Source: Terriglobus sp. TAA 43
GTDB taxonomy: Bacteria > Acidobacteriota > Terriglobia > Terriglobales > Acidobacteriaceae
Assembly: GCF_000800015.1 (NCBI RefSeq)
Contig: NZ_JUGR01000001.1
Coordinates: forward strand, 1,116,001-1,180,000
Length of the DNA stretch: 64,000 nucleotides
Direction of reading: 5' to 3'
Part shown: positions 2,174 through 61,109 of the stretch, in pieces
How the letters are laid out: every line of letters starts with the position of its first letter
Position numbering within the stretch: the first letter of the stretch is position 1
Notes under the pieces: model-generated
What the model was told of the DNA's origin: nothing
Database searches by the model: none
What the model saw: the letters and a program-made list of their open reading frames with translations, nothing else
Program-made: the position numbers and the translations under genes

Positions 2174-4660
2174 ATGTTCGAGCGTTATACCGAAAAAGCG
2201 CGGCGCGTTATCTTCTTTGCGCGTTACGAAGCAAGCCAGTTCGGCTCACCTTACATTGAGACGGAGCACCTGCTTCTTGGCCTGCTCCGCGAAGACAAGG
2301 CGCTGACCAACCGGTTCCTCCGTTCGCACGCATCGGTGGAATCCATTCGTAAACAGATTGAAGGCCACACCACCATTCGCGAGAAGGTGTCGACGTCGGT
2401 CGACCTGCCGCTGTCGAATGAGTGCAAGCGCGTCCTCGCCTACGCTGCGGAAGAGGCTGAGCGCCTCTCGCACAAGCACATCGGCACGGAGCACCTGCTC
2501 CTCGGTTTGCTGCGCGAAGAGAAGTGCTTCGCCGCGGAAATCCTGATGGAGCGCGGCCTGCGCCTGCCCACCATCCGCGAGGAACTGCAGCGCACCACGC
2601 AGGAAAAGCCCACGCCGCAGGCATCGTCCAGCAAGCAGCAGCGCCAGCAGCAGCAGAACGGCGAGCAGTCCATGCTGGCTGAGTTCTCTCGCGATCTGAC
2701 GCAGGCCGCCATGGACCAGCAGCTTGATCCGCTGGTGGGCCGCGATGGCGAAGTGGAACGCGTCATTCAGATCCTCTGCCGCCGCACGAAGAACAATCCG
2801 GTGCTCATCGGCGAACCCGGTGTTGGCAAGACCGCCATCGTCGAAGGCCTGGCGCAGAAGATTGCTGACGGCGAAGTCCCCAGCTTCCTTGCAGACAAGC
2901 GCGTCCTGTCGCTGGATCTTTCGCTCATCGTCGCTGGCACCAAGTACCGCGGCCAATTTGAAGAGCGCCTGAAAACCATCATGAAAGAACTGATGGAGAA
3001 CCAGAACTCCATCGTCTTCATCGACGAACTTCACACCCTCGTCGGCGCGGGCTCGGCCGAAGGCTCGCTCGACGCTGCGAACATCCTCAAGCCCGCACTT
3101 TCGCGTGGCGAGATTCAGTGCATCGGCGCGACGACACCTGCGGAATTCCGTAAGAGCATCGAAAAGGATCGCTCGCTGGAACGCCGCTTCCAGGCCGTGA
3201 AGGTGCCGCCGCCAAACGAAGAAGATGCCATCAAGATCATCATGGGCATCAAGGAGAAGTACGAGAAGTTCCACGCCGTCACCTACACCGACGACGCGAT
3301 CACTTACTCCGTCACGCACTCCAATCGTTACATCCCGGACCGCTTCCTTCCGGACAAGGCGATCGACCTCATCGACGAGGCTGGTGCGCGCGTGAAGCTG
3401 CGCCAGACCACGCTTCCGGAAGAGCTAACTGAAGTCCAGAAGCGCATCAAGTTCATCGTGCACCGCATGGAAAACGCCATTGCAAACCACGAGTTTGAGA
3501 AGGCACGCTTCTACTCTGACGAGGAGCGAAAGGAGCGTGAAAACCTCCGCGCACTCCGCGAACGCTACCACCTCGACGACTCGTCCGCAGGCGTGGTCAC
3601 CAAGGAAGATATTGAGGACGTCGTCAGCCGCTGGACCGGCGTGCCGATCACTTCACTCAAGGAAGAAGAGCAGCAGAAGCTGCTTCGCGTGGAAGAAGAG
3701 CTGCACAAACGCGTTATCTCGCAGGACAAGGCGATCAGTGCCCTCTCCCGCGCGATCCGCCGCTCACGTGCAGGCCTCAAGAACCCCTCGCGCCCCATCG
3801 GTTCGTTCCTCTTCCTCGGCCCCACCGGCGTCGGCAAGACGGAGATGGCGCGCACTCTGGCCCAGTTCCTCTTCGGGTCAGACAAGGCGCTCATCCGCTT
3901 CGATATGTCGGAGTTCATGGAGAAGCACTCGGTCAGCAAGTTGATCGGTTCGCCTCCGGGATACGTTGGTTACGAGGAGGGCGGTCAGCTCACCGAGCGC
4001 GTCAAGCGTCAGCCATACTCCGTCGTCCTGCTCGACGAAGTCGAAAAGGCGCATCCGGATGTCTTCAACCTGCTGCTGCAGGTCTTTGAAGACGGCCACC
4101 TGACGGACGGCCTCGGCAACACGGTCGACTTCAAGAACACGATCCTCATCATGACGTCGAACATCGGCGCCAAGCACCTCATGAAGCGTGAGGGCCTCGG
4201 CTTCCAGTCGAACAAGAACGAGGTCATGCTGGAGAAGATGGAGGAGATGGTGAAGGGCGAGGTCAAGCGCACCTTCAACCCCGAATTCATCAACCGTCTC
4301 GACGAGATCATCGTCTTCACGGCACTCTCTGACAGCGACCTGATGCAGATTCTGGAACTTCTGGTGCAGACCCTAAACACCAATCTGGTGCACAAGGCCA
4401 TCACCATCAGCGTCAATGACGACGCGAAGAAGTGGATTCTTGACAAGACGCTCACAGACCGCAGCTACGGCGCACGTCCGCTCCGCCGCGCTCTACAGCG
4501 TTACATCGAAGACCCGCTGTCGGAGGCGCTCATCGCTGGCCAGATCACCCAGCGCCCATCGTTCCTCGAGGTCTACCTCGATAACAACCAGCTCTTCTAT
4601 CGTCCTGTGGCCCAGGAAGGCGAAGAGCAGGCTGAAGGCGCAGCACTCGCTATCATGTAG
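2174..4660 (+). CDS. clpC: ClpC, Clp protease ATP-binding unfoldase
   Basis: An 828-residue class I AAA+ unfoldase that feeds substrates to ClpP. Two Clp_N repeats (about 1-75 and 80-145) are followed by a Gln-rich linker (about 152-166). NBD1 has GEPGVGKT (213-220), and a UVR-like coiled middle segment ([20 protein letters not shown]) marks ClpC rather than ClpA or ClpB. NBD2 has GPTGVGKT (549-556), and a C-terminal D2-small domain follows. The start at 2174 ([11 protein letters not shown]) is chosen from homology and the purine-rich ribosome site immediately upstream. ClpP is encoded 44 kb away in this window. A strong hairpin follows the stop. A McsB-type adaptor is not seen nearby. Confidence 0.95.
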
Positions 4661-54577: not shown

Positions 54578-54727
54578 ATGTTGATTCTTCTCATCATTCT
54601 TCTTCTGCTCGCATTCGGCACCTCCCCGATTCTTCCCTACAGCCGTGGTTGGGGCTACTACCCGAGCGGTGGGCTCGGTCTGCTGGCAATCATTGTGCTG
54701 ATCGTCCTGCTGATGCACGGCGTCTAA
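54578..54727 (+). CDS. DUF3309 family small membrane protein
   Basis: A 49-residue protein reading MLILLIILLLLAFGTSPILP, a Gly/Tyr-rich turn (YSRGWGYYPSGG), then LGLLAIIVLIVLLMHGV. Two hydrophobic helices with the central W-G-Y-x-P-S-G-G are the DUF3309 signature. AAAGGAG lies 10 bases before the ATG. It is divergent from the lmo0937-type gene; both types of tiny protein are often stress-linked. A perfect terminator follows. Function unknown. Confidence 0.8.
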   Translation: MLILLIILLLLAFGTSPILPYSRGWGYYPSGGLGLLAIIVLIVLLMHGV

Positions 54728-54745
54728 GTCGAAAGAAACAGGTTG

Positions 54746-54787
54746 GCAAACAGGAACGGGAGCCATATGGCTCCCGTTCCTGTTTGC
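54746..54787. terminator. Bidirectional terminator, DUF3309 gene / metO-like gene
   Basis: Perfect 19-bp stem GCAAACAGGAACGGGAGCC-ATAT-GGCTCCCGTTCCTGTTTGC between the convergent genes. Confidence 0.93.
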
Positions 54788-54800
54788 ATAAAAAGAAATC

Positions 54801-55082
54801 CTACTTGCAGCCACCTGCGATCGAAGGGATGAACATAACCTCATCGCGATCCTGAAACTGATACGCATCGCCGCCTAGGAAGCGGATGTCTTCATCGTTG
54901 ACATACACGTTGATGAACTTACGCAGCGTGCCGTCCTCGTCCTTGATGTGCGTGCCCAGCTCCGGGAACTTCAGTCCCAGATCATCCACCAGCGCGGGCA
55001 GCGTAGCCGCCTCAGACTGCACCTGCTTTGTTCCTGACGTGTGCCGCGCAAAGGCGGCGGGAAGCATTACTCGAATTGCCAA
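54801..55082 (-). CDS. ThiS/MoaD-type sulfur carrier, MetO-like
   Basis: A 93-residue beta-grasp protein. MAIRVMLPAA opens the fold, VNVYVN-like INVYVNDEDIRFLGGDAYQFQDRDEVMFIPSIAGG closes it, and Gly90-Gly91 is the usual thiocarboxylation site. Two extra residues (Cys-Lys) follow the diglycine, so a protease step, as in CysO/HcyS systems, would be needed before activation. TTG at 55082 is the start, with AGGAGG at 8 bases; the site overlaps the end of the upstream PLP-enzyme gene, so both are co-translated. With that enzyme it resembles the MetM/MetO pair. A MoaD or ThiS role is less likely because no moa or thi genes are near. Confidence 0.75.
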   Translation of the reverse strand: MAIRVMLPAAFARHTSGTKQVQSEAATLPALVDDLGLKFPELGTHIKDEDGTLRKFINVYVNDEDIRFLGGDAYQFQDRDEVMFIPSIAGGCK

Positions 55083-55083
55083 C

Positions 55084-56376
55084 TTAGTTTCCTCCTGCAA
55101 GTGCCAGTTCCGGCTCTGCAGTCGATGCAGCAACTCCGTCCAGCTCGTTGATGTACTCTTCAAAGTCCGCCAGGCGCGGACGTACTGCGCGGCCCAACGT
55201 AAAGCGATCTGCAATGCAATCGGTCGTCTTCAGACCATTGCCTGTGATGCAGACGACGGTCAGTTCATCCGCTGCAATGCGACCCTGCGCAATCAGCTTC
55301 GCTGTTACGGCAGTAGTGACGCCACCAGCAGTCTCCGTGAAGATGCCTTCCGTCTCTGCAAGCTCCTGAATGCCGCTGACCACTTCAATGTCCGAAACAT
55401 CCTCGGCCCATCCGCCCGTCTCGCGAATCATGCGCGATGCAAACGGACCATCCGCAGGATTGCCAATCGCCAGCGAACGCGCAATCGTCGAAGGCTTCTG
55501 CGGCGTGATGGTTTCGGTATTATTCTTCACTGCCTGTGCAATGGGCGAGCAGCCCGTAGCCTGCGCACCGAAGAAGCGCACATGCTTCTTCTCTACCAGG
55601 CCCAGGTACACCAGCTCATCAAATGCCTTCTTGATCTTGCGGATCAGCGAACCACCGGCCATTGGAACCACAACGTTGTCCGGCAGCTTCCAGCCAAGTT
55701 GTTCCGCAATTTCAAAGCCCACAGACTTTGAACCTTCTGCGTAGTAAGGACGCAGATTTACATTCACAAAGCCCCAGTTGTACTGGTCTGCGATCAGGCT
55801 GCACAGGCGATTTACGTGGTCATAGTTGCCGTCGATACGCACCAGGCGCGCGCCGTAGATCAGGGTGTTCAAAATCTTCGCAGGCTCAAGATCAGCGGGT
55901 ACCAGAATGCAAGCCTTCATGCCAAGGCGTGCTGACTGCGCTGCCACCGAATTCGCCAGGTTGCCCGTAGATGAGCAGCCAACCACATCAAAGCCAAACG
56001 CACGCGCATTCGCCAGCGCAACCGCCACCACGCGATCCTTGAAGCTCAGCGTCGGAAAGCAAACAGCATCGTTCTTGACGTAAAGATTCTGCGAACCAAG
56101 ACGCTTGCCCAGGTTCTTCGCACGCACCAGCGGCGTAAATCCAACCGGCAGATCCGGTTCAAATCCCTCAGGAATGGGCAGCAGCGAACGATAACGCCAC
56201 ATGTTGTCCGGGCCTGCTTCAACAATCTTCTTTGTGAACAGTGGCTTTGCAGCCTCAAGGTCGTAGCGCACTTCCAGCGGAGTAAACGACTCGTCGCAGA
56301 TGCTCAGCGGCTGGTTGCCATAGCTCTTGCCCGATTCCTTCGAGTAAAGCTCGTACGGTGTACACGCAGACGACAT
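55084..56376 (-). CDS. Threonine-synthase-like PLP enzyme, probable MetM (O-phosphohomoserine sulfhydrylase)
   Basis: A 430-residue fold-type II PLP enzyme. SFKDR carries the PLP Lys113, and the phosphate-binding CSSTGNLANSVAAQSARLG and C-terminal CITGNGLK segments match threonine synthase. Start ATG 56376 (MSSACTPYELY) has AGAGGG upstream. Two features argue against a plain ThrC role: a SAM-I riboswitch controls it, and a sulfur-carrier gene follows directly. In the MetM/MetO pathway reported from Streptomyces, a threonine-synthase homologue makes homocysteine from O-phosphohomoserine with a thiocarboxylated carrier. Threonine synthase or cysteate synthase remain possible. A SAM-regulated threonine enzyme would make little physiological sense. 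Confidence 0.75.
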   Translation of the reverse strand: MSSACTPYELYSKESGKSYGNQPLSICDESFTPLEVRYDLEAAKPLFTKKIVEAGPDNMWRYRSLLPIPEGFEPDLPVGFTPLVRAKNLGKRLGSQNLYVKNDAVCFPTLSFKDRVVAVALANARAFGFDVVGCSSTGNLANSVAAQSARLGMKACILVPADLEPAKILNTLIYGARLVRIDGNYDHVNRLCSLIADQYNWGFVNVNLRPYYAEGSKSVGFEIAEQLGWKLPDNVVVPMAGGSLIRKIKKAFDELVYLGLVEKKHVRFFGAQATGCSPIAQAVKNNTETITPQKPSTIARSLAIGNPADGPFASRMIRETGGWAEDVSDIEVVSGIQELAETEGIFTETAGGVTTAVTAKLIAQGRIAADELTVVCITGNGLKTTDCIADRFTLGRAVRPRLADFEEYINELDGVAASTAEPELALAGGN

Positions 56377-56379
56377 AGA

Positions 56380-56395
56380 ACCCTCTTCCAAGGGT
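56380..56395 (-). promoter_or_regulatory. Hairpin covering the ribosome site of the MetM-like gene
   Basis: Minus strand ACCCT-TGGAAG-AGGGT puts the AGGG ribosome-binding bases in a 5-bp stem 4 bases before the ATG. It could be the translational off-switch of the SAM riboswitch about 140 bases upstream. The stem is short, so this is tentative. Confidence 0.4.
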
Positions 56396-56531
56396 GGAAG
56401 AAAGACACTGCATGCGACGCTCTCTATGGATTTGGCGCGTTCCATGGCGATGGACAACGCCGCGCGGAAGGAAGTCTGATTAGACGGTCATACTGCTGGT
56501 CCGACCAAGGTGCGGAGAAGCTGTATCCCGA

Positions 56532-56635
56532 ATCTCATGTTCCCCGGTTCCCCAGGAGAGAGTTGACACCGGTACAGACCTCGTCCGGTTGTCGTGGCGT
56601 CGCAGGGCTCATCCCTCAACCACTCTTCATGAAAT
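56532..56635 (-). ncRNA. SAM-I (S-box) riboswitch
   Basis: On the minus strand all four helices of the S-box aptamer can be drawn. P1 is ATTTCATG/CATGAGAT (8 pairs). P2 is GTGG/CCAC around the conserved GAGGGATGAGCCC with the kink-turn bases. Then comes the GACAACC strand. P3 is ACCGG/CCGGT, followed by GGTGTCAA (consensus GGUGCxAA), and P4 is CCTGG-GGAA-CCGGG. It begins about 35 bases after a promoter and lies 156 bases before the MetM-like start codon. In this class SAM binding turns expression off. The expression platform has no obvious terminator; a hairpin over the ribosome site suggests translational control. Confidence 0.9.
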
Positions 56636-56676
56636 CCGAATCTGCGTGATGCCATTGCAGAAAAGGATGTTGCTTC

Positions 56677-56705
56677 TTTATATCAACGCGCTGAGGTCCA
56701 TGCAA
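56677..56705 (-). promoter_or_regulatory. Promoter of the SAM riboswitch transcript
   Basis: Minus strand TTGCAT, 17 bases, TATAAA. Box and spacing fit a sigma-70-type promoter, and transcription would start about 35 bases before the aptamer. Confidence 0.6.
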
Positions 56706-56769
56706 CCCCGTTCCGGGCGGAGGTGGAGGTAACGAGAATCAACGGTTCGCAAACCACGGAATCTATTGG

Positions 56770-57168
56770 CTACTTCTCGATATGGGACAGGATGCTGCGA
56801 ACGCCCGATACAAATCGGTGAGGATCGAACTCCGTACGCAAAATCTCGTCAGGGCAGTCTGTCAGCACGGCGACACGCCAATTGCAAACAAACGCGACAA
56901 CCTGCTCGGGCTGCCCTGTCTTAATTTCGGAGCACAGTTGTTCCGCAGCCTTCACCTTCTGCTCACCCTCAACGTCGATCAGCACCAGGTCATACAGCTT
57001 GCTCCAAAACATCGAAAGCCCTTCGGCAGTAGAAAGCGTGGAATCCACGTCGAAGCCCGAAAGTCGGAGGATTTGGTCACGCAAAGGACGTAAGGTCTCG
57101 CGCGAGCATATATGCAGAATGTTTTTTGACGGGGTCTCAGCAGGAATCAAAGGCATATCGGATGACAT
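56770..57168 (-). CDS. Response-regulator receiver-like protein
   Basis: A 132-residue single-domain protein. NILHICSRETLRPLRDQILRLSGFDVDSTLSTAEGL resembles the start of a CheY fold, and YDLVLIDVEGE supplies an Asp at the phosphoacceptor position. The acidic pair near the N-terminus is replaced (CSRE) and the Thr/Lys switch residues are not evident, so it may be a degenerate receiver. No histidine kinase is nearby. It lies between the riboswitch promoter and the divergent metH genes. Confidence 0.6.
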   Translation of the reverse strand: MSSDMPLIPAETPSKNILHICSRETLRPLRDQILRLSGFDVDSTLSTAEGLSMFWSKLYDLVLIDVEGEQKVKAAEQLCSEIKTGQPEQVVAFVCNWRVAVLTDCPDEILRTEFDPHRFVSGVRSILSHIEK

Positions 57169-57297
57169 TGGCTACGTGCCTCTTGCGAAATCGAAGTGCA
57201 AGCTCAGAGGCAGTTTTAGTGTACAGAAGCCCGCCGTCCCAAGACGAAGAGCGGCCGGACGCGTCCCACCGCACTCCAGTATCATCGAATCTTTGCC

Positions 57298-58400
57298 ATG
57301 TTTTCTAACAGCGATCAACATCCTCTGCGTAAAGTCCTCCAGGAGCGCATCGCCATCATCGATGGCGCCATGGGCACCACTATCCGTACCTACGGGATGA
57401 CGGAAGCCGACATGCGCGGTGAACGCTTCAAAGACGCACCCAAAGACCTGCTGAACAACGGTGATCTCTTTTCTCTCACGCAGCCAGAGATGATCTGCGA
57501 CATCCATCGCCGCTTCTTGGTCGCAGGCGCGGATATTGTGGAAACAAACACATTTTCCGCGACGGGCATCGCGCAAAGCGAGTTCTTTGTGGAAGATCCG
57601 CGCGAACACGGCGGACGCAAAGACCCTGACTTCTACCAGAAGATTCTTGAGAACAAGTTCCTCAACGATCTCGCATGGGAAATCAACGAAGTCTCAGCGC
57701 TACAGTGCCGCGAATGGGCCGATAACGTGGCCAGCGATGATGGCCGCCAGCGTTTCGTCGCAGGCGCCATTGGCCCTCTGACGGTATCGTTGTCCAATTC
57801 GCCGGATGCCGACGATCCCGGCTTCCGCGTCGTGACCTTCGATCAGGTACGCGAAGCCTACAAGCTTCAGACACGCGCGCTGATTGCGGGTAAAGTCGAC
57901 ACCCTACTCGTGGAAACCATCTTCGACTCGCTCAATGCAAAGGCCGCGCTCGTAGCCATCCGCGAAGTCTTCGACGAAGACAAAGTAGAGCTTCCGGTGA
58001 TGATTTCTGCAGCCGTTGGTCGCGGTGGCGAGACCATGATCTCCGCCCAGACAGTAGAAGCATTCTGGAACGCGGTGAGTCATGTAAATCCGCTGTCTGT
58101 CGGACTGAATTGCTCTATTGGCCCGGACCTCATGTTCCCGTTCCTTAGCGAACTCTCAGCGAAAGCTCACACTGCCATCAGCGCCTATCCGAACGCCGGC
58201 CTGCCCAATCCCCTGTCGCCCACAGGGTTCGATCTGGAACCAGAGGACATGGCGCGTTTCCTCGGCGACTTCGCTAATAATGGCCTCATTAACATTGCAG
58301 GTGGATGCTGTGGCAATACACCGGAACACATAGCCGCCATTGCTAAAGCCCTCGACGGCAAACATCCGCGCGAATACGCATTGGAACTGGCAGGAGCACG

Positions 58401-58404
<4 letters not shown>
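57298..58404 (+). CDS. metH: Methionine synthase, homocysteine-binding part (split MetH, N-terminal)
   Basis: A 368-residue protein equal to the first module of cobalamin-dependent methionine synthase. [13 protein letters not shown] opens the Hcy-methyltransferase barrel, and Cys272 (GLNCS) and Cys337-Cys338 (GGCCG) are the zinc ligands that bind homocysteine. In most bacteria this module is fused to the folate and B12 domains; here the frame ends and the next gene begins with a 4-base ATGA overlap, so the two parts are made together and probably assemble. No riboswitch was seen upstream. Confidence 0.9.

Positions 58405-61109
<2,705 letters not shown>

Follow-up and report, generated by a model that had tools for sequence, protein, structure and literature searches.

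A threonine-synthase homologue and a capped sulfur carrier behind a SAM riboswitch as the probable homocysteine synthase of Terriglobus sp. TAA 43

In Terriglobus sp. TAA 43, a gene that passes as thrC lies behind an S-box RNA, which raises the question of whether its product makes threonine or, together with the small sulfur carrier encoded behind it, homocysteine. The locus was read in a window of 64,000 nucleotides, which is the whole stretch of DNA analysed, and was followed into the 4.95 Mb genome (99.9% complete) and a sample of 297 Acidobacteriota genomes including TAA 43 itself. The gene pair is very probably the MetM/MetO-type homocysteine synthase of this organism, which would form homocysteine from O-phosphohomoserine and the carrier thiocarboxylate, using a capped carrier and trimming by a JAMM protease. 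As far as sequences can tell, the assignment to this pathway is strong by context. The features of the locus are given in Table 1.

Table 1. Features of the metM-like locus of Terriglobus sp. TAA 43 (window coordinates)
Feature	Position	Strand	Basis
Possible promoter, TTGCAT-N17-TATAAA	56677..56705	-	by eye; TTGCAT 56705-56700, TATAAA 56682-56677
SAM-I (S-box) riboswitch aptamer	56532..56635	-	RF00162, 72.3 bits, and covariation
Hairpin over ribosome-binding site	56381..56404	-	-11.6 kcal/mol
metM-like gene, PLP fold-type II, threonine-synthase homologue	55084..56376	-	430 aa from ATG 56376
metO-like ThiS/MoaD-fold sulfur carrier, 93 aa, TTG start, C-terminus GGCK	54801..55082	-	PF02597 ThiS
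metH part 1, homocysteine S-methyltransferase domain	57298..58404	+	PF02574, 250.7 bits; sole domain there
metH part 2, pterin-binding, B12-binding and activation domains	58401..61109	+	NF007024, 1507.6 bits over 1497

The preliminary description had read a threonine-synthase-like gene followed, one base after its stop, by a ThiS/MoaD-like carrier, and this reading was confirmed. The enzyme scored 276 bits with TIGR00260 (cut-off 167) and was matched to Thermus ThrC 1UIM by phmmer with an E value of 6.3e-46, and its best named match was an enzyme of Terriglobus roseus DSM 18391 with 92% identity. The carrier scored 47.9 bits with PF02597 (ThiS; cut-off 22.5), and its TTG at 55082 follows the ThrC-like stop codon at 55086-55084. 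The listed open reading frame of the enzyme starts at TTG 56457 (457 aa), and the leader alignment (n=77, 21 read by eye) indicated that the ATG of Table 1, just 3' of a purine-rich ribosome-binding site, is most likely the start. The statement that the carrier ends in GG was wrong; the translated end is IPSIAGGCK, and the misread end concealed the most interesting part of the locus. The split metH described next to the pair on the opposite strand proved to be real, with the PF02574 domain in one part and the pterin, B12 and activation domains in the other. As a conserved partner of the pair, metH was rejected, since of the 80 related loci just 10 showed part 1 and 20 showed part 2; in 68 of the 80 the match starts beyond base 3900.

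The aptamer reported from the letters was verified with RF00162 over the full model at 72.3 bits (gathering score 44.4, E value 5.6e-15), and it was the sole RF00162 match reported in the genome among the 150 of 398 first-look candidates that were scored. All 16 related loci that were compared with Rfam also had an RF00162 match upstream. A model made from these loci and the window then recovered the aptamer in 79 of 81 sources, 16 of these hits following from its construction; the hit at L028 was partial, and the two misses, L066 and L082, have at most 51 bases before the match. Among the 79 matches, 9 of 27 pairs were changed on both sides, compared with a shuffle mean of 1.1 (0 of 500 shuffles as high), and 99.8% of the pair cells were paired in an alignment fitted to the model. 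The promoter claimed in front of the aptamer stood in part, as its hexamers are visible by eye, and a consensus scanner, whose rule requires the second hexamer to end in T, reported none in 54600-57400; the promoter is therefore possible but unproven.

The hairpin over the ribosome-binding site was flagged as terminator-like by the scanner, and the bases following it, TTCTATGTCG, have no clean T run. It is likely to be a translational expression platform. Of the 16 relatives viewed of 79, many have a hairpin before the chosen start, picked by a simple rule, though some lack one. A model of the full expression platform was dropped, because the hairpin persisted in a simple fold in which P1 was blocked.

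In 40 distant loci, fetched from among the 72 genomes with a MetM-like gene, SAM-I was found in 14, SAM-II in two and neither in 24. The SAM-II matches (RF00521) lie just above the gathering score of 36 (L116, 37.3 bits; L119, 36.3 bits). At L116 (oriented 2211-2285), some 190 bases separate the end of the match from the likely enzyme start, and at L119 (oriented 1386-1460) the match precedes a run of SDR, enzyme and carrier genes, so that the SDR gene comes first after SAM-II, ahead of the enzyme gene. SAM-I appears to have been replaced by SAM-II in some lineages.

The earlier proposal of a homocysteine synthase drawing on the threonine branch was supported by a separate thrC, by MetX and MetA not being found, by the tree and by the rare co-occurrence of MetM and MetX; the step from O-phosphohomoserine to homocysteine is one that we infer. 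Eight PF00291 proteins are encoded in the genome, one of which is the enzyme of the window. A second, riboswitch-free thrC does exist: a 449-aa ThrC (TIGR00260, 282 bits) is encoded beside the homoserine kinase gene thrB (TIGR00191, 240 bits), and no SAM riboswitch was found in the surrounding 14 kb stretch. A further thrC-like gene is of the PRK08197 type (514 bits over 303). Neither MetA (PF04204) nor HcyBio (PF01837) had a match in the genome, and the best match to the MetX model reached 92 bits, compared with 355-397 bits in the six genomes of the family that carry MetX. Two strong enzymes were present among nine PF01053 matches, both of which scored under the TIGR01326 MetY model (179 and 335 bits versus 495.1).

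The window protein was matched at 390 bits or more in 70 of the 297 genomes (47-100% identity), with two fragments in addition (304 and 252 bits), giving 72 genomes with a MetM-like gene; the next matches, below the gap, had at most 246 bits and at most 38% identity. Because the curated MetX cut-off of 500 was reached by 0 of 297 genomes and 0 of 14 controls, MetX was counted at 200 bits or more, our own threshold, which admits a few fragments. Both genes were present in 6 genomes of the phylum, MetM only in 66 and MetX only in 67 (Fisher p = 1.3e-4), and in the family of the window (n=31) the counts were 1 with both, 24 with MetM only, 5 with MetX only and 1 with neither (p = 2e-4), both p-values overstating independence because the genomes are related. 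The other 158 of the 297 genomes had neither the MetM-like gene nor MetX at the thresholds used.

A MetY-like gene was found in the fetched MetX neighbourhood of all six family genomes with MetX; among the four of these MetY-like genes that were tested, TIGR01326 was passed by all four and PRK08248 by three. No SAM riboswitch was detected at threshold in the seven MetX loci fetched. SECIS_3 matches of 68.9 bits occur near MetX/MetY in two relatives without MetM (L150:2930-2988 and L153:3613-3671). Within this one family, MetX/MetY and the MetM/carrier pair have likely been swapped in evolution.

Homocysteine might instead be made mainly by plant-type transsulfuration of O-phosphohomoserine, with the product of the pair being minor. 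Of the two strong PF01053 enzymes, the cystathionine beta-lyase-like one (L105:8026-9180) exceeds two beta-lyase cut-offs (561 over 500 and 397 over 366), but the cystathionine gamma-synthase/lyase-like one (L107:6234-7406) passes no cut-off of the 25 families listed of 43 matched. The one reported SAM riboswitch of the genome is at the pair, whereas none was found in the stretches around L105 or L107, and the presence of MetM tracks the absence of MetX. This explanation is very unlikely.

In a maximum-likelihood tree of 62 chosen rows with a midpoint root, 55 MetM-like rows grouped together with a support of 100/99, apart from seven ThrC-type rows, which in part have long branches, include a Thermus stretch of 323 residues and hold no actinomycete ThrC; the tree, proposed as a check in the preliminary description, thus spoke for its reading. 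Motifs conserved in ThrC are changed in the MetM-like clade, for example STGNT to STGNL and NSVNPHRLEGQK to NVNLRPYYAEGSK. The altered motifs (STGNT and NSVNPHRLEGQK) are ones that we take to line the active site. The clade consists of the window side (32 rows, support 88/79) and a SYKDR side (23 rows, 98/96). At the 23 loci of the SYKDR subclade, an adjacent carrier was found in one (L125) and not in 22, and SAM-I was found in six (L124, L125, L129, L131, L144 and L149, the last with its match more than 1 kb upstream), leaving 17 without a SAM riboswitch. On the window side, no carrier was found at four of the 17 distant loci (L114, L120, L121 and L147) and no SAM riboswitch at seven (L112, L113, L117, L118, L122, L145 and L148). 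A MetM-like protein of Nonomuraea from the plasmid collection (an 11.85 Mb record) showed 52.5% identity over 86% of the query, compared with 31-36% for the other 39 records listed of 139. Its locus has the same order, with a SAM-I aptamer (68.7 bits) upstream, the enzyme, and a carrier ending in GG downstream. The protein joined the window-family rows at 90/94, on a long branch whose placement was called unsure by the tool.

Further genes accompany the pair in relatives. At L110, L111 and L115, which belong to one family, SAM-I lies about 2 kb before the enzyme; the row at L115 comprises SAM-I, a ThiF-family gene (251 bits), a class-V aminotransferase (274 bits) that may be cysteine-desulfurase-like, the MetM-like enzyme and a carrier ending in GG. 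Rhodanese-ThiF fusions adjoin enzyme and carrier at L112 and L122, so the operon appears to gain a ThiF/MoeB-type activating gene in some lineages. An amino-acid-kinase (aspartokinase-like) gene lies downstream at L117 and L131. At L148 (genome G009), enzyme, carrier, SDR-like and CysM-like genes were found in one stretch, and JAMM was matched some 2.5 kb beyond the enzyme.

With a dedicated thrC beside thrB elsewhere in the genome, an enzyme clade outside the ThrC rows, an adjacent sulfur carrier, carrier-activating genes in some relatives and rare co-occurrence with MetX, it is extremely unlikely that the gene encodes a further threonine synthase whose SAM-tied expression balances threonine against methionine, even though it passes the TIGR00260 "thrC" model. 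What speaks for that possibility is a ThrC from Microcystis that shares 51.6% identity with S. albulus MetM and is described as mainly a threonine synthase, with deaminase activity in addition (PMC12172450); in view of this protein, function is not settled by sequence identity alone.

The residues behind the GG motif were compared among the carriers. A carrier was found by motif in 79 of the 80 close-relative loci (none in L099), and no residue follows GG in 4 of them, 1-6 residues in 54, 12 in one and 16-42 in 20, so that 75 of 79 carry an extension of 1-42 residues. Of the 75 extensions, 38 begin with Cys and 21 with Ser. In 16 carriers (L071, L072, L075, L079, L080, L083, L084, L088-L090, L092-L094 and L096-L098), a variable linker behind GG leads to the terminal sequence CCSYCGxE[ED]CxC. 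The mean minor-base frequency over the 12 codons of this Cys-rich tail was 0.271 at the third position, 0.062 at the first and 0.068 at the second, which is the pattern expected of a protein under selection. Pfam gave ThiS/Urm1 only for the Cys-tailed carrier of L097. The 40 distant loci yielded 14 carriers, and bare GG is the terminus of 12 of these, L145 and 11 from outside the window's family; of the other two, L146 in the window's family ends in TI and L125 has eight extra residues. Outside the window's family, bare GG was thus seen in 11 of 12 carriers.

The GG of the TAA 43 carrier would become terminal only after trimming. A single JAMM (Prok-JAB) protein is encoded in the genome, with the motif HSHx7SxxD, and its gene lies directly before a carrier-MoeB-rhodanese fusion gene (L104:6643-8627; G000:C1 about 1380642-1382626). 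The fusion has 497 aa and consists of a ThiS-like carrier (GG followed by AP...), a MoeB/MoeZ part and a rhodanese domain; the fused carrier would need excision to become free. JAMM (PF14464) was found in 66 of 72 MetM-like genomes versus 75 of 225 others. It was not found in G019, G128, G153, G169 and G215, which form one family, or in G140; the three carriers read from that family (L110, L111 and L115) all end in bare GG. This distribution is compatible with capped carriers depending on JAMM. Many genomes with bare-GG carriers also have JAMM, however, and it could equally serve cysteine synthesis. Every one of the 31 genomes in the window's family has it, whether or not MetM occurs there, so the protease is no special feature of the MetM route.

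In Mycobacterium tuberculosis, CysM and CysO make cysteine from O-phosphoserine with a carrier thiocarboxylate produced by MoeZR, and the protease Mec+ frees cysteine from the CysO adduct (PMC3227635). The proposed TAA 43 system shares with it the carrier thiocarboxylate, a phospho-amino-acid substrate and a protease, and differs in that the M. tuberculosis product is cysteine and that a second carrier is fused to a MoeZ-like protein in Terriglobus. Mec+ itself is presumably a JAMM-type protease. That the pair makes another sulfur amino acid, such as cysteine from O-phosphoserine, is the least probable explanation of all. The similar chemistry and carrier type of the mycobacterial system (PMC3227635) and the lack of a CysE (TIGR01172) match over the cut-off in the genome (best 96.5 versus 210.65 bits) speak for it. 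Opposed to it are the SAM regulation of the pair, the ThrC ancestry of the enzyme, which makes a phospho-substrate with four carbons likely, the separate CysM-like gene of the genome and the joint occurrence of MetM-like and CysM-like genes in the G009 stretch. A carrier route to cysteine is possible in TAA 43 as well.

The homocysteine synthase proposed here was compared with known systems. PMC12172450 describes Streptomyces MetM as a ThrC-like enzyme with a SAM riboswitch upstream and O-phosphohomoserine as the substrate. TAA 43 resembles that system in having a ThrC-like enzyme distinct from its own ThrC, the riboswitch upstream and a carrier directly downstream, and in that the homoserine-acylating genes MetX and MetA were not found. 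In Streptomyces, the sulfur carrier MetO lies downstream of MetM, a system reportedly described by Hasebe et al. in AEM in 2024. The MetM/MetO route is already known from Streptomyces, and the novelty lies in the residues after the carrier GG: the TAA 43 carrier, from the phylum Acidobacteriota, ends in GGCK, whereas that of Nonomuraea, used as a proxy in place of the Streptomyces end, stops at GG. The capped and trimmed carrier looks like a new variant of this route. Work by Krishnamoorthy and Begley in 2011 is said to have described HcyS/HcyD/HcyF with MetY in Wolinella succinogenes, where the carrier needs JAMM trimming and the enzyme is reportedly a MetY-type O-acetylhomoserine sulfhydrylase. 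Homocysteine synthesis by a protein thiocarboxylate with JAMM trimming would be common to both organisms, but the enzyme proposed for TAA 43 is homologous to ThrC and would draw on the threonine branch. It shares with ThrC such as Thermus 1UIM the PLP fold-type II and the TIGR00260 match, and differs in its separate clade, changed motifs, SAM control and carrier partner; from the MetY/MetX route TAA 43 differs in having neither gene at threshold. A protein thiocarboxylate pathway for homocysteine is mentioned in the excerpt of PMC5764234, and nothing on Acidobacteria stands in that of PMC12452182. No capped carrier was found in the open-licence literature searched, and publication elsewhere is possible.

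At low SAM, the S-box would leave the ribosome-binding site open and both proteins would be made, the carrier with a two-residue cap (CK) behind GG. The JAMM metalloprotease encoded elsewhere would trim this cap, and the MoeB/MoeZ-type enzyme with the rhodanese domain would adenylate and sulfurate the exposed glycine. The resulting carrier thiocarboxylate would hand its sulfur to the PLP enzyme for gamma-replacement on O-phosphohomoserine, and homocysteine would pass to the neighbouring split MetH. A more tentative, and rather doubtful, extension is that the Acidobacteriaceae carrier is translated as an inactive precursor, capped at a GG-Cys end that mimics the adduct of carrier and cysteine cut by Mec-type proteases, which would provide a second, post-translational gate on methionine synthesis. 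In one subclade the cap would have become a conserved CCSYCGxE[ED]CxC module, with a possible role in sensing metals or thiol state or in docking the protease.

In summary, the pair offers a route to homocysteine in soil Acidobacteria without recognisable MetX or MetA, and suggests that a match above the thrC cut-off may also come from a homocysteine synthase. The capped carriers and Cys-rich tails suggest that the carrier has to mature, in a step that cysteine synthesis may share.
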